Shown here: positions 5,811-28,524 of the stretch, piece after piece
Layout: every line of letters starts with the position of its first letter
How positions within the stretch are numbered: the first letter of the stretch is position 1
DNA from: Verrucomicrobiaceae bacterium
GTDB lineage: Bacteria > Verrucomicrobiota > Verrucomicrobiia > Verrucomicrobiales > Akkermansiaceae
DNA length: 64,000 nt
Direction: 5' to 3'
Assembly: GCA_027491155.1 (NCBI GenBank)
Contig: JAIXWR010000012.1
Coordinates: 186,001-250,000, forward strand
Notes under the pieces: generated by a model
The model's input: the letters and a program-made list of their open reading frames with translations, nothing else
What the model was told of the DNA's origin: nothing
The model's database searches: none
Program-made: the position numbers and the translations under genes

Positions 5811-6028
5811 GGGACTCCGTAACGAAGCCCAGGGTTGCGAGGAACGAGCTACCCTGGGTCGCTGCGACCGCCCTTGTGCTACGCCAAAGGCGTTGCGTCG
5901 CTTCGGTCCTCGGCGGCTCGCGGCACCAACCCGTCCGCAACCTCGTTGAGGTAGGTCATGGGGCGGGGCTTTTACCCAGGGTAGCGCCTCCTTCGTCGGC
6001 GCAACCCCGGGCTTTGTTGCGGAGTCCC
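5811..6028. repeat. Intergenic element with long imperfect terminal inverted repeats
   Basis: Positions 5811-5839 and 6000-6028 are inverted copies that differ at only three of 29 positions. A further exact 12-nt inverted pair (GCTACCCTGGGT) lies just inside, so each arm extends to about 50 nt. The whole is 218 bp with no convincing gene, and looks like a MITE or REP-type element. Copies elsewhere in the genome would be expected. Confidence 0.7.
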
Positions 6029-6146
6029 TTCGGGACATGAAACCACAGAATGCGGAGTCCAGTCGGAACACGGAGCCACCGAATGCGGAGTCCCGCCGGG
6101 ACACGAAGCCACAGAGGTATGGAGTCCCGTCGGGACTTTGATCCGC
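6016..6146. repeat. Four imperfect 33-nt tandem repeats
   Basis: Four units of about 33 nt begin near 6016, 6050, 6083 and 6117. Each contains GGAGTCC-n3-GG(G/A)AC and a tail resembling GAAGCCACAGA. The first unit overlaps the right arm of the preceding inverted-repeat element. They lie in the gap downstream of both the ABC ATPase and dnaN. No reading frame through them looks coding. Confidence 0.7.
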
Positions 6147-11126: not shown

Positions 11127-11129
11127 ACG

Positions 11130-11318
11130 AAGTTCCAAGTGGGGAAGTTCCAAGTGCCAAGAAAGGCAGGAAGCCCTGAAAGGCCTTCGCTTCGTCGCGC
11201 CTTTCCCCTTTGGCACTTGGAACTTCGTCCTTGGAACTTCTTCCCCTTGGCACTTGGAACTTCCCCACTTGGAACTTTCCCCCCTTGGCACTTGAAACTT
11301 TTCACTTGGAACTTCTTA
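11130..11318. repeat. Inverted and direct repeats of a TTGGCACTTGGAACTT motif
   Basis: A perfect 32-nt inverted repeat occurs at 11130-11161 and 11246-11277, spaced by 84 nt. At least two more partial copies of the same motif lie at about 11210-11240 and 11281-11318. The block begins directly after the small gene's stop and ends about 50 nt before kdsB. Confidence 0.85.
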
Positions 11319-11370
11319 CCCTTGCCCCGCCCCGGAGCGACCCCGTAGCTTCCCCGGCGACACCTTTCAC

Positions 11371-19062: not shown

Positions 19063-20088
19063 GTGCCCGAGACCCGCCTGCTCTCCACCGAAGAAGACGA
19101 CATGAACGACGCCGTGCGCGAAGCCGCGGCGCTGCTCGCCGCCGGCGAGGTCGTCGCCCTGCCGACCGAGACGGTTTACGGCCTCGCCGCCGACGCCTTC
19201 AACCCGGACGCGGTGGCCAAGGTCTTCGCGGCGAAGGAACGCCCGTCCTTCGACCCGCTGATCGTCCACATCGCCTCCTTCAAGGAGCTGGCCGACGTCG
19301 CCGAGGTGCCGGCAGACATCGCCGACACCGTGAAAAGTATCGCCGGGGCATTCTGGCCGGGGCCGCTCACCATCGTGCTGCCGAAGTCCGCGAAGGTCCC
19401 CGACCTCGTCACCAGCGGCCTGCCGACCGTCGCCGTGCGGCAAAGCGGCCATGTCATCTTCCGGGCCATCGGCCGCGCCCTCGGCCGCCCGATCGCCGCG
19501 CCCAGCGCCAACCGCTTCGGCCGCATTTCCCCGACCTCCGCCGGCGCGGTGATGAAGGAACTCGGCGGCCGCATCCCGCTGATCATCGACGGCGGCGCCT
19601 GCCGCGAGGGGCTGGAAAGCACCATCATCGCGATCGAGGCCCGCGGCGACCAACGCCCGCTGATCCGCATCCTGCGCGCCGGGCCGGTGACCAAGGAGGA
19701 CCTCCAGAAATTCGGCAAGGTGGTGATCGAGAAAAAGGTCACCGACCGCCCCGACGTCCCCGGCCAACTCGCCAGCCACTACGCCCCGCGCACCCCGCTG
19801 CTGATGTTCGACCGGCCGCAGGATTTCAAACCCGAGCCCGGCAAGAAATACGGCCTGCTCAGCTACCGCGGCGACCCGAAGACCGGTTACATCGACCTCC
19901 ACGACTGGGAAGTCGTCGAGGAACTCAGCCCCGGCAGCGGCAAGCTGATGGAAGCCGCCCTCCGCCTCTTCCACGTCATGCGCGTCCTCGACGAAGCCGG
20001 CCTCGACGCCATCGTCGCCGAGCCCGTCAGCGAAACCGGCCTCGGCGTCGCCATCATGGACCGCCTCCGCCGGGCTTCGGCGAAGTAG
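19063..20088 (+). CDS. tsaC: L-threonylcarbamoyladenylate synthase (Sua5 type)
   Basis: This enzyme makes threonylcarbamoyl-AMP for t6A tRNA modification. The 341-residue protein has the YrdC domain (VALPTETVYGLAADA, FWPGPLTIVL, APSANRFGRISPT) and a C-terminal Sua5 domain after the linker PGQLASHYAPRTPL, so it is the long Sua5 form. The GTG start at 19063 is preferred, because TRLLSTEEDDMNDAV resembles the family N-terminus; an ATG at 19102 would shorten it by 13 residues. It works with TsaB, encoded at 13825-14532. Confidence 0.93.
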   Translation: MPETRLLSTEEDDMNDAVREAAALLAAGEVVALPTETVYGLAADAFNPDAVAKVFAAKERPSFDPLIVHIASFKELADVAEVPADIADTVKSIAGAFWPGPLTIVLPKSAKVPDLVTSGLPTVAVRQSGHVIFRAIGRALGRPIAAPSANRFGRISPTSAGAVMKELGGRIPLIIDGGACREGLESTIIAIEARGDQRPLIRILRAGPVTKEDLQKFGKVVIEKKVTDRPDVPGQLASHYAPRTPLLMFDRPQDFKPEPGKKYGLLSYRGDPKTGYIDLHDWEVVEELSPGSGKLMEAALRLFHVMRVLDEAGLDAIVAEPVSETGLGVAIMDRLRRASAK

Positions 20089-20161
20089 GGCAAGCTTCCG
20101 TGGGACTCGGGCAAGCAACCCGTTTTCTCGTTCCGTCAGGATTTCTTCACTCAAGAATCTC

Positions 20162-20263
20162 AACCGCGAAAAACGCGAATGAGCGCGAAATCTGAAAGAT
20201 GCCGGAATCGGAAGGCCTTTCGGCTGTTACAGATTTCGCGCTCATTCGCGTTCTTTAGCGGTT
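20162..20263. repeat. Long near-perfect inverted repeat
   Basis: The 33-nt arm at 20162-20194 pairs with 20230-20263 with one insertion and one mismatch. The two arms enclose 35 nt. The repeat lies between two plus-strand genes and would form a long RNA hairpin downstream of tsaC. It lacks a T run, so it is not a clear terminator. Confidence 0.8.
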
Positions 20264-20349
20264 CCAATATTGAGCCGGAATCTCGATAAGAGCCCGTCTC
20301 GACCCTCCCCCTTGCGCCACGCAAGTTCCCGCCTAGCATCCTCACCGCG

Positions 20350-20976
20350 ATGCACCGCAAGCGAATCCTTCTCCAGTCCCTCCTGATCCTGCTCGCGGTC
20401 TGGGGAGTCGTCGCGGCGGTCCGCTCCTACGCAGGGTCGAAACGGATCACCGCGGAAAAGGTGGCCGCCGAGGTGAACTCCGCCGCCTTCGAAGACTGGT
20501 CGCAGGGCCCCGGCTCCGCCGCCACCGGCAAACAGCGCGAGGAAAAGCTGCGTGAAATCGCCGGGCTGGTGAACCGCCTCGATTTCAACGAACGCGAACG
20601 CAACCGCGAGGACCGCTCGGTGGAGCGGATGTTCCGCCTCCTTTCCACCGACGAGAAGAAGCTCTTCATCGACCTCACCGTCCGCGAATCGATGGGCAAG
20701 TTCATGGAAGCCCTCGACGCCCTGCCACCGGCCGAGCGGAAGAAGTTCGTCGAGAAAGGCCTCGAGGAAATCCGCAGCGGCCGGACGGAGGAGGAAATGG
20801 CCCGCGCCGAGGAACTGGGGGACGACCTGCTGGAAACCATCGCCGGCGAAGGCATGCGCGCCTATTTCGAGAAGGCGAATGCCGACACCAAGCTCGACCT
20901 CGCGCCGCTGATGGAGTCGATGAACGAAGTCATGCAAGGCCTTCGCGGCCAGCAATTCGGCCCCGGCGCGCAATGA
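20350..20976 (+). CDS. Membrane-anchored hypothetical protein (208 aa)
   Basis: One N-terminal transmembrane segment (about residues 7-24, LLQSLLILLAVWGVVAAV) is followed by a long charged, helical, probably periplasmic or cytoplasmic domain rich in Glu, Arg and Lys. No known family is recognised. Its stop overlaps the start of the prepilin-like gene (ATGA), so the two probably work together or at least share expression. Confidence 0.75.
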   Translation: MHRKRILLQSLLILLAVWGVVAAVRSYAGSKRITAEKVAAEVNSAAFEDWSQGPGSAATGKQREEKLREIAGLVNRLDFNERERNREDRSVERMFRLLSTDEKKLFIDLTVRESMGKFMEALDALPPAERKKFVEKGLEEIRSGRTEEEMARAEELGDDLLETIAGEGMRAYFEKANADTKLDLAPLMESMNEVMQGLRGQQFGPGAQ

Positions 20977-21494
20977 AAAGCTCCCGCCCCGGCTTCACCC
21001 TCACCGAGCTGCTGGTGGTCCTCGCCATTCTCGGCGCGCTGACCGCCATCGCCATCCCCGCCGGCCGCGCCGTCCAGGCCCGCTCGCGAACCGCGGGCTG
21101 CCTGTCGAACCTCCGGCAGATCGCCGTCGGGCTTGAATCCTACCTCCAGGACCACAACCAGACCATGCCCGACATCGCCGCCGGCCGGAAAAGCAAGGCC
21201 GAGGACGTGCCGGTACTCGAAACCGAACTCGCGTCCTACCTCCCCGATCCCAAGGTCTTCAAATGCCCCGCCGACCACAAGGTCTTCGAGGCGTCCGGCT
21301 GCAGCTACATCTGGAACAGCTCCCAAAGCGGCCGCCACCGCTTGAAGCTCGAGTTCTTCGGCAAGACCGGCCAGGACAACCGCATCCCGCTCGTCAGCGA
21401 CAAGGAGTCCTGGCACCCCGGCGAGTCGGGCGTGAATTTCCTCTACGCCGACCTCTCCGCCTCGACCAAGGTCAACTTCGGCGTGAGCCCGTGA
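20973..21494 (+). CDS. Prepilin-type N-terminal domain protein
   Basis: The N-terminus MKSSRPGFTLTELLVVLAIL is a type IV pilin/type II secretion leader; prepilin peptidase would cut after the Gly of GFTLTE and methylate the Phe. The hydrophobic helix is followed by a globular domain containing CSYIWNSSQSGRH and ending LYADLSASTKVNFGVSP, as in the DUF1559-like pseudopilins of Verrucomicrobia and Planctomycetes. It has 173 residues. It is coupled to the preceding membrane-anchored protein. Confidence 0.85.
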   Translation: MKSSRPGFTLTELLVVLAILGALTAIAIPAGRAVQARSRTAGCLSNLRQIAVGLESYLQDHNQTMPDIAAGRKSKAEDVPVLETELASYLPDPKVFKCPADHKVFEASGCSYIWNSSQSGRHRLKLEFFGKTGQDNRIPLVSDKESWHPGESGVNFLYADLSASTKVNFGVSP

Positions 21495-21541
21495 AGAAGA
21501 TGGTAGATGGTAGATGGTAGATCCCCCAGAAACACTGACTT

Positions 21542-21660
21542 GCCATCCGCCATCCGCCATCCGCCATCCGCCTTCCGCCTTCCGCCTTCCGCCTTCCGCC
21601 TTCCGCCTTCCGCCTTCCGCCTTCCGCCTTCCGCCTTCCGCCTTCCGCCATCCGCCATCT
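21542..21660. repeat. Heptamer tandem repeat (17 units)
   Basis: Seventeen 7-nt units in a row: four GCCATCC, eleven GCCTTCC, then GCCATCC and GCCATCT. The array ends six bases before the ATG of the following ABC ATPase and occupies the place of its ribosome-binding site. On the opposite strand it reads GGAAGGC, which is Shine-Dalgarno-like but in the wrong orientation. Confidence 0.9.
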
Positions 21661-21666
21661 CGTCCC

Positions 21667-22551
21667 ATGCTCACCGTCACCGGCCTCCACAAATCCTTCG
21701 GCGGGAAGCCGGCCCTGCACGATGTCTCGTTCACGGTCGAACGAGGCGAGATCCACGGCCTGTTAGGCCACAACGGCGCGGGCAAGAGCACCACGCTCGG
21801 CATCATCCTCGGGATGGTCGCGCCGGACCGGGGCGACGCGACGATCGGCGGCATTTCGGTCCAGAAGGACCACGCCGGAGCCCTCCGCCAGGTCGGCGCG
21901 ATCTTCGAAAGCCCGGCCTTCTACGAATACCTCAGCGGCTGGGAGAACCTCCGCATCCTCGCCAGCTACTCGGGCCCCTTTGAAGTGAAAGCCGCGCGGG
22001 AAATCGTCGAACGCGTCGGCCTGACCCAACGCATCGACTCCAAAGTCCGCACCTATTCCCACGGCATGCGCCAGCGGCTCGCCCTCGCCCAGGCTTTGCT
22101 GCCGGAGCCCAAGGTCCTGCTGCTCGACGAACCGACCGACGGCCTCGACCCGGAAGGCATCAAGTGGTTCCGCGACTTCATCCTCGGCCTGCGTGCCGAC
22201 CGCGGGATGACCGTCCTTTTCAACTCCCACCTGCTCGCCGAGGTCGAGCAGATGTGCGACCGCGTGACCATCCTCCGCCAGGGCCGGCTGGTCCATGAAG
22301 GCGCCCTCAAGGACCTCCGCGAGGAAGCGCCGGTTTACGAGGTGGATCTCGATCCCTGGGAGAAAGCCGCCGCTTTCCTCGAACTCAACGGCGCGCGGAT
22401 CCTTTCGCCCGGCCGCATCGCCCTGCCCGCCGATGCCGACCCCGCGCTCACCGTGGCCGCCCTGGTCGGCAGCGGCATCCGCGTCTCCGCCTTCGCCCCG
22501 GTGCGCCGCTCGCTGGAAGACCTCTACCTCGAAATCACCGCCGCCCGATGA
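21667..22551 (+). CDS. ABC transporter ATP-binding protein (ABC-2 exporter type)
   Basis: This is the ATPase of an export-type ABC system, partnered with the permease that overlaps it. The 294-residue protein has Walker A GHNGAGKST (about residue 37), the signature YSHGMRQRLALAQAL, Walker B VLLLDEPTDGLDP and the switch His in NSHLLAEVEQ. The ATG at 21667 gives the canonical MLTVTGLHKSFGG. The frame remains open upstream through the heptamer repeat, but the translated repeat is not family-like. The substrate is unknown. Confidence 0.9.
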   Translation: MLTVTGLHKSFGGKPALHDVSFTVERGEIHGLLGHNGAGKSTTLGIILGMVAPDRGDATIGGISVQKDHAGALRQVGAIFESPAFYEYLSGWENLRILASYSGPFEVKAAREIVERVGLTQRIDSKVRTYSHGMRQRLALAQALLPEPKVLLLDEPTDGLDPEGIKWFRDFILGLRADRGMTVLFNSHLLAEVEQMCDRVTILRQGRLVHEGALKDLREEAPVYEVDLDPWEKAAAFLELNGARILSPGRIALPADADPALTVAALVGSGIRVSAFAPVRRSLEDLYLEITAAR

Positions 22552-23396
22552 ATTTCCTCCGCCAGCTCCGCGGCGAACTCCGCAAGCTCTTCGCCCGGCC
22601 CCGTTCCTACATGGGCTACGCCGTCTTCGTCGCGATGGAGGCCCTCATCCTCGCCGTCTACAAGTTCGGACGCGGCCAGGAACACATGCGCGATCTGATC
22701 GAGCGGAACGGCTATTCGTTCGCGACCTACTTCAGCTCGCTGTCGATCACCTTCATGATCATGATGCTGAGCATGTTCCTGCTCGGCTCCGTGTTCTTCG
22801 CGCTGGTCGCGGGAGACATCGTGGCGAAGGAGACCGAGGACGGCAACCTGCGCCTGGTCATGGCCCGGCCGGTCAGCCGGCTGCGGCTGCTGCTGATCAA
22901 GTATGCCTCGATCATGATCTACACCTTCACCTTCGTCTTCTTCGTCGGCGTGACCGGCTACCTGATGGCCGTGGCGGCGATGGGCTTCGAAGGCGGGCTC
23001 TTCGTGATCGAACCGAAGATGAAAGTGTTCGCCGTCTTCCCATCGTGGACCGAAGGGGCGGTACGCCTGACGCTCGGCGCGGCGGGCATCGCCGTCAGCA
23101 TGATCACCCTGTCGTCGCTGGCCTTCATGTTCTCCTGCTTCAAGATCAAGCCGGCCGCCGCGACCATCATCACGCTGGCGCTGCTGTTCGTGGACATGAT
23201 CCTCCAGAACTTCCCCTTCTTCCGTCCCTACGAGGAATGGTTCGTCACCTGGCGGATGAGCTGCTGGCTGTTCCTGATGGAGAACCAGATCTCCTGGCCG
23301 AAGATCTTCGAGTCCTACGCCTTCCTGATCGGCCTGAATGCCACGCTTTTCCTCATCGGCTACACCTCGTTCCGCCTGCGGGATTTCAAGACCTGA
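22548..23396 (+). CDS. ABC-2 type transporter permease
   Basis: This 282-residue membrane protein has about six hydrophobic segments. The motif VAGDIVAKETEDGNLRLVMA is typical of ABC-2 permeases, following a first helix near VFVAMEALILAVYKF. ATGA overlap with the upstream ATPase indicates a two-gene export operon. The substrate cannot be deduced. Confidence 0.87.
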   Translation: MNFLRQLRGELRKLFARPRSYMGYAVFVAMEALILAVYKFGRGQEHMRDLIERNGYSFATYFSSLSITFMIMMLSMFLLGSVFFALVAGDIVAKETEDGNLRLVMARPVSRLRLLLIKYASIMIYTFTFVFFVGVTGYLMAVAAMGFEGGLFVIEPKMKVFAVFPSWTEGAVRLTLGAAGIAVSMITLSSLAFMFSCFKIKPAAATIITLALLFVDMILQNFPFFRPYEEWFVTWRMSCWLFLMENQISWPKIFESYAFLIGLNATLFLIGYTSFRLRDFKT

Positions 23397-23771
23397 GCCC
23401 CTCTTTTTGTAGCGGCGCGTCTGCCTGCCCTTCGTAGCCTTGGCGAAGAAGGACGACCGCCGCACTTTGCAAACGAGGCGACCTTGGATGCCCGCTTGAG
23501 CTTCGATGGAACAGCCCCTCTCCCGTGGCTTCCTTTACAGCCACCGGCGGTCGCAGACCGCCGCTACAGCCGGAAAGCACAGCGGGCGACCGGCGGATCA
23601 CCCGGGGTCGCCGTCCCGGGAGTCGCCGATCGCCCGCGGAGAGGGAGACCGAATCCGTTGGGGCGTCGCCGCCTGCCAACGGGATGACTCTCCCACGAGG
23701 CGCGGGTTTCCGGTATTCCCTGATCGCGTAGGGTGCTTTCCTCGTTTGCAAGCCGGCCCATCCTCGGAAAG
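23397..23771. repeat. Structured gene-free region before bioA
   Basis: A 12-nt exact inverted pair (23467-23478 and 23740-23751) bounds about 285 nt. Inside are a perfect palindrome at 23545-23563 (CGGCGGTC/GACCGCCG, loop GCA) and a nested stem in which GGGAGA (23643-23648) pairs with TCTCCC (23689-23694) and CCGTTGG (23655-23661) with CCAACGG (23676-23682). No reading frame looks genuine. It may be a non-autonomous mobile element or a structured RNA. Confidence 0.5.
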
Positions 23772-23780
23772 ATGCCCCCG

Positions 23781-25031
23781 ATGCGCGACGACACGCGAGC
23801 TTGGATCGAGGCCGACAAGGCCCGCTGCTGGCACCCCTTCACGCCCCAGGACGCGTGGACGGCGGGCGAGCCGCTGGTGCTGGTCCGCGGCGAGGGCGCG
23901 TGGCTTCGGGACTCCGAAGGCCGCAAGTACCTCGACGGCAATTCCTCGATCTGGACCAACATCCACGGCCACAACCATCCGCACCTCAATGCCGCCCTCA
24001 TTCGCCAGCTCGGCGAAGTCGCCCACACCTCCTACCTCGGCTTCGCCAATCCGCGCGCCAGCGAACTGTCGGAGCGCCTCTGCGCCTTATTCCCGGCCGG
24101 CACGCTGGATCGCGTGTTCTTCTCCGACGACGGCTCCACCGCCATCGAGTGCGCGATGAAGATGGCCATCCAGTTCCGCCAGCAGACCGGCGAACCGGAG
24201 CGCACCGGCTTCATCGCCTTCGACCAGGCCTACCACGGCGACACCCTGGGCGCGGCTTCGCTCGGTGGCGTCGCGCGCTTCCACGACCGTTTCCGCAAGC
24301 ACGGCCTTCCGGTGCATTTCGTCGCGGACCTCGATGCCCTGCGCGCGCTGCCCGACGATGTCGTCGCAAGCACCGCCGCGGTGGTCATCGAGCCGCTGAT
24401 CCAGGGCGTCAACGAGATGCGCCCCTGGCCCGCCGGCATGCTGCGGGAACTCCGCGCCTGGTGCGATGAACACGGCATCCACCTGATCCTCGACGAGGTC
24501 ATGACCGGCTTCGGCCGCACCGGGAAGATGTTCGCCTGCCAGCACGAGGACGTGATTCCCGATTTCCTCTGCCTCGCCAAGGGCCTGACCGGCGGCTACC
24601 TGCCGATGGCCGCGACGCTGACGACCTCAAGCGTTTACGATGCCTTCCTCGGCGGCCCCGAACGCGCCTTCTACTACGGCCATAGTTACACCGCGAATCC
24701 TCTCGGCTGCGCGGCGGCGCTGGCTAGCCTGGACGTTTTCGAGAACGAGCGGACGCTGGAATCCCTGCAGCCGAAGATCGCCTTGATGGCGGAACTGCTG
24801 GCCGCCTTGAAAGCGGACTGCCCGGCAATCATCGACGTCCGCCAATGCGGCTTCATCGCCGGCATCGAGTTCGACCGCGACGCCGCGCCGATCTGCCTCG
24901 CCGCCCGCGACCACGGCCTGCTCACTCGCCCGATCCGCAACACGGTGGTCCTGATGCCGCCGCTTTGCATCACCGGGCCCGATCTCAGGCGGGCGTTCCG
25001 TGCCATCGACGCCGCGGCGAGCGAGAAGTGA
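23781..25031 (+). CDS. bioA: Adenosylmethionine--8-amino-7-oxononanoate aminotransferase
   Basis: This PLP enzyme makes 7,8-diaminopelargonate in biotin synthesis. Family features are WHPFTPQD, YLDGNSSIWTNIHGHNHP, FSDDGSTAIECAMKMAIQF, ILDEVMTGFGRTG, the PLP lysine in LAKGLTGGYLP, and GHSYTANPLGCAAALASL. The ATG at 23781 has GGAAAG nine bases upstream; ATG at 23772 would add three residues. No other bio genes are adjacent. Related class III aminotransferases are the alternative, but the WHPFT and YTANPLGCA motifs favour BioA. Confidence 0.88.
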   Translation: MRDDTRAWIEADKARCWHPFTPQDAWTAGEPLVLVRGEGAWLRDSEGRKYLDGNSSIWTNIHGHNHPHLNAALIRQLGEVAHTSYLGFANPRASELSERLCALFPAGTLDRVFFSDDGSTAIECAMKMAIQFRQQTGEPERTGFIAFDQAYHGDTLGAASLGGVARFHDRFRKHGLPVHFVADLDALRALPDDVVASTAAVVIEPLIQGVNEMRPWPAGMLRELRAWCDEHGIHLILDEVMTGFGRTGKMFACQHEDVIPDFLCLAKGLTGGYLPMAATLTTSSVYDAFLGGPERAFYYGHSYTANPLGCAAALASLDVFENERTLESLQPKIALMAELLAALKADCPAIIDVRQCGFIAGIEFDRDAAPICLAARDHGLLTRPIRNTVVLMPPLCITGPDLRRAFRAIDAAASEK

Positions 25032-26037: not shown

Positions 26038-28524
26038 CTACAGGTCTCCAAACAAATCCATCTGCGGCGGATTCGCCTCCGGCATCGGGTCCTGCCGGGT
26101 GTTCTTCGCCTTCGGTCCCTTCTGCTTGGCGTCGGGCTTGGTCGAGTTGACCTCGAGGTGCGAGAGGATCGCCTTGGCCCGGTCGATGATCGGTTTCGGC
26201 AAGCCGGCCAGCCGGGCGACCTGGATGCCGTAACTCTTGTCCGCCGCGCCGGGGAGGATCTTGCGGAGGAAGATGATCTCCTCGTTCCACTCGCGGACGG
26301 CGACGTTGAAGTTCGCCACCGCGGGGCGGGTGTTGGCGAGGTCGGTCAACTCGTGGTAGTGGGTCGCGAAGAGGGTGCGGCAGCCGATGACGTCGTGCAG
26401 GTGCTCCGCCACCGCCCAGGCGATCGACAGGCCGTCGAAGGTCGCGGTGCCGCGGCCGATCTCGTCGAGGATGACCAGCGAGCGGTCGGTGGCGTGGTTG
26501 AGAATGAGGGCGGTCTCGTTCATCTCGACCATGAAGGTCGATTGACCGCGCGACAGGTCGTCGGAGGCACCGACGCGGCAGAAGATGCGGTCGACCATGC
26601 CGATGCGCGCGCTGGCGGCAGGGACGAAGGCACCGGTCTGGGCCATCAGGGTGATCAGGGCGACCTGGCGGATGTAGGTCGATTTGCCGGCCATGTTCGG
26701 GCCGGTGAGAATCTGGAGCAGCGAGTCGGCGGGATCGAAGGTCGTGTCGTTCGGCACGAATTTCTCCTCGACCAGGGTTTGCTCGAGCACCGGATGGCGG
26801 CCGTCGGTGATGACCAGGTGACGGGAGTCGTCGAGCTCCGGCCGGACGTGGCCGTGGGTCTGGGCGGTTTCCGCGAGGCCGCAGAGGACGTCGATTTCGG
26901 CGATGGCCGCGGCGGTCTGTTGCAGGGCGTCGAGGCGGGTGCAGACCTGCTGGCGGAGCTGAAGGAAGAGCTCCGTCTCCAGCTGCTTGGCCCGCTCTTC
27001 CGCGCCGAGGACCTTGTTCTCCATTTCCTTGAGCGCCGGGGTGATGTAGCGCTCGCAGTTGGCCATGGTCTGCTTGCGGGTGTAGTCGTCGGGGACCTTG
27101 GCGAGCTTCGACGAGGTGATCTCGATGAAGTAGCCGAATACGTTGTTGAACTTCACCTTCAGCGAGTCGATGCCGGTGCGCTGGCGTTCGTCTTCCTGGA
27201 GCTTCGCGATCCACGACTTGCCGTCGCGGGACAGCGAGCGGAGTTCATCGAGCTCCGGCGAGTGGCCGTCGCGAATGATCCCGCCGTCGCGGAGGTTGGC
27301 CGGAGGTTCGTCGGCGAGGGAGCGTTCGAGGAGTTCGACGAGGTCGGGGAAGGCGGAGAGATTGCTGATTGTTGATTGTTGATTGTTGATTGGACCAAGG
27401 CAGGAGAGGTCTTCCTGGAGGGCGGGGATGTGGGCGAGGGAGTTGCCGAGGGACTGGAGGTCGCGGGCGTTGCCGGCACCTTGCGAAAGTCGGCCGACGG
27501 TGCGCTCGATGTCGCGGATGCCTTGCAGGGATTCGCGGCACTTCGAGAGGATGAAGGGCTGGGCGAGCAGGGCGGCGATGAAGTCGTGGCGGACGGCCAG
27601 CGCGTCGCGGTCGCGCAGCGGGTGGAGGATCCAGTCGCGCAGCAGCCGGGCACCCATCGGCGTGCGGGTGCGGTCCAGCACGCCGAGCAGCGTGTGCTTT
27701 TTCCCGGAGCGAGAGTCGATCAGGTCGAGGTTCCGCTGCGAGGCGGCGTCGATCAGGACGTGGCGGCGCTGGTCGAGCGTGCGCGGCGGGCGCAGGTGAT
27801 CGCAAGGGCGGCGGAGCTGGTGGATCAGGTAGTGCAGGATCGCGCCAGCCGCGGCGACGGCGGAGGGCGCATCCGCACAGCCGAAGCCGTCGAGCGAATG
27901 GACGCCGAAGTGGTCGCACAGCAACTGCCGCGCGGGGTCGGGCAGGAAGGCGTAGCCATCGTAAGGCTGCGCGGCGGGCAGGGCGCCGAAGACGGCGAGC
28001 TGCTCGTCGGACACCAGCAGTTCGGACGGGGTGAGGCGCGCGAGTTCGTCGTCGAGCTGCGCGGGATCGGCGAACTCGGCGACGGTGAAGGCACCGGTCG
28101 AGTGGTCGACGCAGGCGAGGCCGCGGGTTTTGCCGAGCTGGAAGACGGCGGCGAGGTAATTCGGCCGCTGGTCGTCGAGCAGGTGGGTTTCAAGGATGGA
28201 CCCGGCGGAAATGATGCGGGTGATCTCGCGTTCGACGATCTTGCCGGGCTTCGGTTCGCTGGTTTGTTCGGCGATGGCGACCCGTTTGCCGGCCTTGACC
28301 AGTTTGGCGATGTAGTTTTCCGCGGCGTGGTAGGGGACGCCGCACATCGGCACCGCGTTGCGTCGGGTGAGGGCGACGTTGAGGAGGGGCGCGGCGGTCT
28401 TCGCGTCCTCGAAGAACATCTCGTAGAAATCGCCGAGGCGGTAGAGCAGCAGCACGTCGTCAGGCAGCGAGCGGCGCATCGCCTGGTACTGCGCCATCAT
28501 CGGGGTGAGCGTCGGTGCGGACAT
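26038..28524 (-). CDS. mutS: DNA mismatch repair protein MutS
   Basis: MutS recognises mismatches and starts mismatch repair. The 828-residue protein begins MSAPTLTPMMAQYQAMRR, with the mismatch-binding motif GDFYEMFFEDAK near residue 32. The ATPase domain has Walker A TGPNMAGKSTYIRQ, Walker B LVILDEIGRGTATFDG and ATHYHELTDL. The C-terminus ends PPQMDLFGDL. Inside the core domain a short segment (GPINNQQSTISN) is encoded by an intergenic-type repeat (27361-27394). ATG at 28524 matches the family start; the upstream open frame is not MutS-like. Confidence 0.96.
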   Translation of the reverse strand: MSAPTLTPMMAQYQAMRRSLPDDVLLLYRLGDFYEMFFEDAKTAAPLLNVALTRRNAVPMCGVPYHAAENYIAKLVKAGKRVAIAEQTSEPKPGKIVEREITRIISAGSILETHLLDDQRPNYLAAVFQLGKTRGLACVDHSTGAFTVAEFADPAQLDDELARLTPSELLVSDEQLAVFGALPAAQPYDGYAFLPDPARQLLCDHFGVHSLDGFGCADAPSAVAAAGAILHYLIHQLRRPCDHLRPPRTLDQRRHVLIDAASQRNLDLIDSRSGKKHTLLGVLDRTRTPMGARLLRDWILHPLRDRDALAVRHDFIAALLAQPFILSKCRESLQGIRDIERTVGRLSQGAGNARDLQSLGNSLAHIPALQEDLSCLGPINNQQSTISNLSAFPDLVELLERSLADEPPANLRDGGIIRDGHSPELDELRSLSRDGKSWIAKLQEDERQRTGIDSLKVKFNNVFGYFIEITSSKLAKVPDDYTRKQTMANCERYITPALKEMENKVLGAEERAKQLETELFLQLRQQVCTRLDALQQTAAAIAEIDVLCGLAETAQTHGHVRPELDDSRHLVITDGRHPVLEQTLVEEKFVPNDTTFDPADSLLQILTGPNMAGKSTYIRQVALITLMAQTGAFVPAASARIGMVDRIFCRVGASDDLSRGQSTFMVEMNETALILNHATDRSLVILDEIGRGTATFDGLSIAWAVAEHLHDVIGCRTLFATHYHELTDLANTRPAVANFNVAVREWNEEIIFLRKILPGAADKSYGIQVARLAGLPKPIIDRAKAILSHLEVNSTKPDAKQKGPKAKNTRQDPMPEANPPQMDLFGDL
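27361..27394 (-). repeat. In-frame TTGATTG repeat inside mutS
   Basis: TTGATTG units are tandemly repeated at 27361-27394 and encode INNQQSTISN on the minus strand. They keep the mutS frame open. The composition is unlike the flanking GC-rich coding sequence. Confidence 0.75.

Follow-up and report, generated by a model that had tools for sequence, protein, structure and literature searches.

A heptamer array before an ABC transporter gene as the longer arm of an inverted repeat in a Verrucomicrobiaceae bacterium

Tandem heptamers that end a few nucleotides before a start codon raise the question of whether their number controls the gene behind them. Such an array, with units of the form GCCWTCC, directly precedes the gene for an ABC transporter ATPase in the stretch of 64,000 nucleotides analysed here (the window, from contig JAIXWR010000012.1). 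An earlier sequence-only reading had proposed that the array takes the place of a normal ribosome-binding region, and that its copy number could alter expression by changing the frame of an upstream start or the spacing of an upstream signal. The analysis points on balance to a different reading, according to which the array is probably a 3’ arm that has outgrown its partner in an inverted repeat with heptamer arms, a slippage-prone, hairpin-forming and tolerated intercistronic spacer.

The array and its partner arm

The count of seventeen units and the distance of six bases between the last of them and the ATG, both given by the sequence-only reading, were borne out. In order, the units are four GCCATCC, eleven GCCTTCC, one GCCATCC and a terminal GCCATCT; TRF reports the array at 21542-21656, with a period of 7 and a score of 195. 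The uniform GCCTTCC block appears to have arisen by multiplication of a single mutated unit.

A second array had been overlooked. It begins 3 nt past the stop of the upstream prepilin-like gene and its AGATGGT units are roughly the reverse complement of GCCATCC (Table 1). With this partner, the 17-unit array forms one side, the longer one, of an inverted repeat that occupies the gap between the prepilin-like and ABC genes with two very unequal tandem arms. In the centroid RNA fold, pairing is limited to the left arm and the first GCCATCC units, and the minimum-energy fold adds weak pairs within the GCCUUCC run. The fold of the junction is no better than those of dinucleotide shuffles (z -0.48), shuffling being a weak control for a repeat of this kind. 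A known structured RNA family was rejected for the junction, as Rfam gave no match above the gathering score at 20000-24000 of the window.

Table 1. Features of the junction, in window coordinates
Feature	Position	Strand	Evidence
Upstream gene, prepilin-like (N_methyl)	20973..21494	+	Pfam PF07963, E 8.9e-07; NCBIfam TIGR02532; stop TGA 21492-21494
Left (5’) arm, AGATGGT x3.6, purine-rich	21498..21522	+	TRF; centroid RNA fold pairing
Loop between arms, 19 nt	21523..21541	+	Read from sequence
Right (3’) arm, 17 heptamers	21542..21660	+	Sequence, TRF, unit listing
Spacer CGTCCC before start codon, without Shine-Dalgarno	21661..21666	+	Sequence; SD tests
ABC transporter ATPase gene, 294 aa	21667..22551	+	Pfam PF00005, E 1.8e-31
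ABC-2 permease gene, 4-nt overlap with the end of the ATPase gene	22548..23396	+	PF12730, E 1.4e-07

The prepilin-like and ABC genes are co-directional and probably cotranscribed. No terminator was found at 20950-21700, nor any sigma-70-like promoter, the scan having been confined to this promoter type. If the array is an overgrown arm, such arrays would grow and become homogeneous through replication slippage in 7-nt steps, and they would persist beside start codons because their sense strand remains C/T-rich and mostly free of pairing, like that of ordinary leaders that lack a Shine-Dalgarno (SD) sequence. For the same reason, copy number would matter little to the ABC gene. The paired part behind the stop codon may have a slight influence on mRNA stability or on reinitiation. 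The spacer arm would thus be tolerated and not tuned; we infer both the mechanism of growth and the tolerance.

Heptamers across the genome and the genus

For each period, perfect tandem runs with 14 matches or more were tallied in 464 kb of the own genome (G000), which comprise the window and 20 further stretches (400 kb) and amount to about 8% of the genome. Period 7 accounted for nine of the 11 runs with periods from 4 to 13. The 20 further stretches had been picked non-randomly, before their content was seen, on contigs 2, 3, 5, 8, 24, 27, 28, 29, 35 and 40, all ten of which were known from hits with the ABC gene or with heptamers. The nine runs represent seven loci with several unrelated units, and three of them are the ABC-junction element itself; one of the sampled stretches (C3:1-20000) opens inside an array at the contig end. 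Periods 8 and 12 contributed one run each and periods 4-6 none. Longer periods, for which runs were not itemised, included 14 and 21 (four each), probably as multiples of 7, and 16 and 18 (two each). A single simulation of these 464 kb under an order-2 Markov model produced no run at any period from 4 to 21. In this sample the exact 7-nt unit is in excess over other lengths, as in bacterial heptameric SSRs.

Heptamer arrays are also found in frame inside genes, namely mutS in the window and priA at locus L163 (both named by NCBIfam). The mutS array, at 27360-27392, encodes INNQQSTIS, and an effect at the protein level was rejected since this peptide falls in a loop of variable length. mutS was matched in 16 genomes, 12 of which were aligned; the array is common to G010, is different or shorter in nine other relatives, and has no corresponding residues in G005.

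Hairpins with the layout GATGGYR...YRCCATC stand at three further co-directional junctions of the own genome: asd-ispA, ureA-ureB and that between an exopolyphosphatase-like gene and ppk. The names asd and ispA derive from Pfam and ureA from NCBIfam, ppk is named from a fragment scoring below the curated cut-off, and the remaining two genes are what we take to be ureB and an exopolyphosphatase-like gene. A strict form of this pattern, which may miss other hairpins, found four in the own genome. Within the genus it occurs at 12 distinct places in five of the 18 genomes, a distribution that requires three changes on a two-protein tree; beyond the genus, one of 242 other family genomes has a short and doubtful hairpin. 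The backward pattern was absent from all 260 genomes, and the arm-exchanged pattern from the 18 of the genus.

Other repeats were observed in the same DNA. At 11127-11370 of the window, a tandem-armed inverted repeat (AAGTTCCAAGTG / CACTTGGAACTT) with 32-bp arms and a fold z of -8.1 lies between co-directional genes, and its family recurs at L160 15829-15906 and L163 7398-7522. The word TGCCTTT/TGCCTTA recurs in the hairpin loops of two families at L007, L055, L052, L063 and L160 15829-15906, and it is also seen near the ispA start in several relatives. TGCCTTT could be the mark of one mobile family: it recurs in several loops, but among the leaders it is found in just 4 of 266. At 6018-6136 of the window, a 33-nt repeat in 3.6 copies carries a GTCCCGTCGGGAC palindrome.

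The ABC gene was matched at E <= 1e-60 in 28 of 38 genomes, the own included, among them all 18 of the genus, and its junction was compared between species with one genome for each. Alongside the 17 units of G000, there are 9.9 copies of CCCATCT in G010, a shorter mixed GCCATCY array in G006, a decayed hairpin in G008 and five copies of the unrelated ACCTCCG in G011. The remaining 13 genomes have no array, and their ABC gene starts 5-42 nt past the stop codon. Both length and sequence therefore vary between related species at one place, as heptamer SSRs do, and the turnover of array length and unit between species is fast, as judged from these genomes. The idea of a length-variable array is thus sustained as a difference between species. 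In a check of 80 loci, period-7 runs with 14 matches or more were found at the ABC junction only in L077 and L083, which are G010 and G006 again and not independent cases.

Units also differ at other junctions. Before tsaD (NCBIfam name), AAGTTCC hairpins are present in G000 and G010 and CAATCGC units in G001, and at the ppk junction there are GATGG hairpins in G000 and G008, CTCGCTA units in G003 and other heptamers in G006; each of the two queries was matched in 17 of the 18 genomes. When 70 windows of 160 nt upstream of the ABC, ppk, tsaD and ispA genes were taken together, 12 of the 15 runs had period 7 (nine at ABC, two at ppk, one at tsaD and none at ispA), two had period 9 and one period 10, with no runs in the gene-body control. 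Two of these windows had been misplaced by contig ends (tsaD in G006 and ppk in G001), and a period-7 run was absent from them on rereading.

Less likely readings: a selected hairpin, length control or a mobile element

The recurrence of paired arms could also mean that an intercistronic RNA hairpin is under selection, with a stem that sets mRNA stability or translational coupling and an arm sequence that is free to change. Such selection may act on the stem at asd-ispA, since hairpins recur there with different sequences: z is below -3 in 11 of the 16 measured junctions, a count that leaves out G013 (asd end not found) and G017 (996 nt, no true junction), and at least four kinds of arm can be told apart by eye. 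The same layout is seen at several junctions of the own genome. Nevertheless, among 122 co-directional junctions of 45-260 nt, stems reaching from stop to start numbered 41 against 43.7 expected, for which reason a bridging hairpin was rejected as a general rule, and z fell below -3 in only 12 of the 122. Furthermore, no such hairpin is seen at the ABC junction in the 13 genomes with a short spacer, and the stem in the own genome spans the first units only. Selection for a hairpin is thus an unlikely explanation of the array.

The proposal that the array replaces the ribosome-binding region was not confirmed. In the 464-kb sample, where genes were called by a home-made model with approximate starts, SD cores were found upstream of 4.3% of ATG starts (n=278), compared with 12.6% for internal ATGs (n=1518) and 9.0% in the control window. 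The genome avoids SD sequences, and none of the 18 genus genomes has one before the ABC gene. Akkermansia is the type genus of the family. It is counted among SD-scarce bacteria in the available part of PMC10783764, which agrees with the avoidance seen here. Leaders of the own genome are C-rich around starts, and their sense strand abounds in C/T words, with ATCCGCC, for instance, in 14 of 266 leaders (the ABC gene being one of the 266), against 2.65 in shuffles and 2 for the reverse complement. The array resembles a continuation of this pattern.

These results bear on the possibility of a contingency locus, in which slippage would change the expression of the ABC transporter by altering how upstream signals are spaced or framed. 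In its favour are the length and homogeneity of the array, its distance of only 6 nt to the start, the differences in its length between species, and the promoter-proximal repeats that serve as rheostats elsewhere, as in H. pylori sabA according to the available text of PMC4081817. Moreover, the own leader is predicted to be the most open of the 12 genus leaders folded (0.68 vs 0.24-0.59; 12 of 18 genomes). Predicted accessibility of the start is, however, flat at 0.71-0.73 from 2 to 19 copies of GCCTTCC, compared with 0.63 at one copy and 0.33 at none. Given these values, initiation might gain from having the array at all, but hardly from its exact length or from further copies. Of the claim that copy number alters expression, the variation between species is supported, and the predicted accessibility lends no support to an effect over 2-19 copies. 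As to the two routes that had been suggested, there is neither a sigma-70-like promoter in the scanned region nor an SD to be spaced, and the in-frame upstream ATG at 21514, which opens a 345-aa ORF, shows no sign of conservation. In addition, most of the genus does without the array, and relatives carry heptamer arrays upstream of ppk and tsaD, as the own genome does within mutS and priA. Control through array length appears improbable.

A third explanation is that a tyrosine (Y1/RAYT) transposase moved a REP-like palindrome and that the arms of this palindrome expanded later. Hairpins of one family are indeed dispersed in five of the 18 genus genomes, Y1_Tnp matches are present in all 18, and contig C40 of the own genome has an AGATGGC x10 array some 310 bp away from a partial Y1_Tnp match. 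Conversely, this match is bordered on both sides by a different palindrome (by eye), copies are few (the four hairpins of the strict pattern, which may miss others), and genus genomes without hairpins carry Y1_Tnp too. Among 30 Y1_Tnp loci, all high-scoring matches taken from a longer list at one or two per genome, period-7 runs were present in four and absent from 26. A REP/RAYT origin was judged weak, and we regard it as quite improbable. Long mosaic arrays, made of successive 7-, 8- or 9-nt units whose sequence switches from block to block, were observed next to genes for a Y1 transposase in G013 and G002 (L196 178-423 and 1119-1436; L197 1144-1303; L214 1084-1306). As the period-7 runs at four of the 30 Y1 loci include these mosaics, heptamer arrays may have some link to mobile elements.

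An assembly artefact or a coding extension of the ABC protein is scarcely credible: heptamer arrays may break assemblies, given that contig C3 of the own genome begins inside a (CCACCAT)13 array (L159 1-92), and the frame is open from the ATG at 21514, but a 119-nt array should lie within common read lengths, other genomes have arrays at the ABC junction, the sequence is absent from 13 of the 18 genus genomes, and the coding extension is not supported by the open frame around the ABC match, which measures 267-555 aa in genus relatives (one cut by a contig end) and 345 aa in none.

Known heptamer repeats and meaning for the genus

Heptamer repeats are already known from bacteria, and what is new here is the presence of different heptamers at one junction in related species. 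According to the available sections of PMC4692102 and PMC4679880, such repeats are over-represented in many bacteria, vary between close species, form inverted pairs and occur near start codons, and the preference for 7 nt is explained there by hypothesis only. The Xanthomonas and Nostoc repeats, (GGGAATC)n and (GGGGAYT)n, belong to one G-rich unit family per organism in the portion of PMC4692102 at hand. In contrast, the genome analysed here has several unrelated units, arms of the GATGGYR/YRCCATC type and a junction at which the unit differs between related species.

The TAACTGA repeats upstream of starts in Beggiatoaceae, cyanobacteria and Bacteroidetes (PMC4679880, available text) resemble the present array in that the heptamers lie only a few nucleotides from the start. 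They are mostly counted without an RBS among the table rows listed there, indels in 7-nt steps separate two close Cyanothece strains, and some Bacteroidetes have other heptamers in the TAACTGA intergenic regions. Notwithstanding, TAACTGA is one shared heptamer, proposed in the same text as a possible regulator binding site, while here species differ in the unit that they carry at the same junction. That unrelated heptamers replace one another at a single junction within one genus is not described in the available parts of PMC4692102 and PMC4679880. No literature on Verrucomicrobia with heptamer repeats or the term heptanucleotide was found in the paper library searched, and the exact repeat words led to no relevant paper, as judged by title and the start of the abstract.

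REP/GTAG palindromes with their RAYT are, like the hairpins here, dispersed short palindromes and, in the accessible text of PMC3733652, are also found in Verrucomicrobia (O. terrae). Unlike these, the arms described here are tandem heptamers of variable length, with no consistent link to a Y1 transposase. Instead of the high copy number and the GTAG or CGTC end tag of REPs, four hairpins were found in the own genome with the strict pattern, and GTAG occurs inside the AGATGGT units and not as a single end tag. The T-tract of H. pylori sabA (PMC4081817, in part) and the repeat of Moraxella uspA2 (mentioned in the available text of PMC4679880) are upstream-proximal as well, but changes in expression were measured there, whereas no sigma-70-like promoter was found near the present array.

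A broader and rather tentative possibility is that a repeat process which counts in sevens favours gene leaders in this genus. Related species would then acquire unrelated new arrays, many of them hairpins, at matching operon junctions, and the spacer ahead of the start codon would be exchanged repeatedly with its C/T-rich sense strand kept. If this is true, the machinery, for example the footprint of a polymerase or of repair, would set the unit length, whereas the local leader would set the unit sequence. Leaders of this sort would then be a fast-evolving type for SD-independent translation. An array proximal to a start codon should not be equated with a phase switch unless strain or expression data are at hand. 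A genus with species-specific heptamers at several junctions offers natural replicates for slippage, hairpin-based copying and leader selection.
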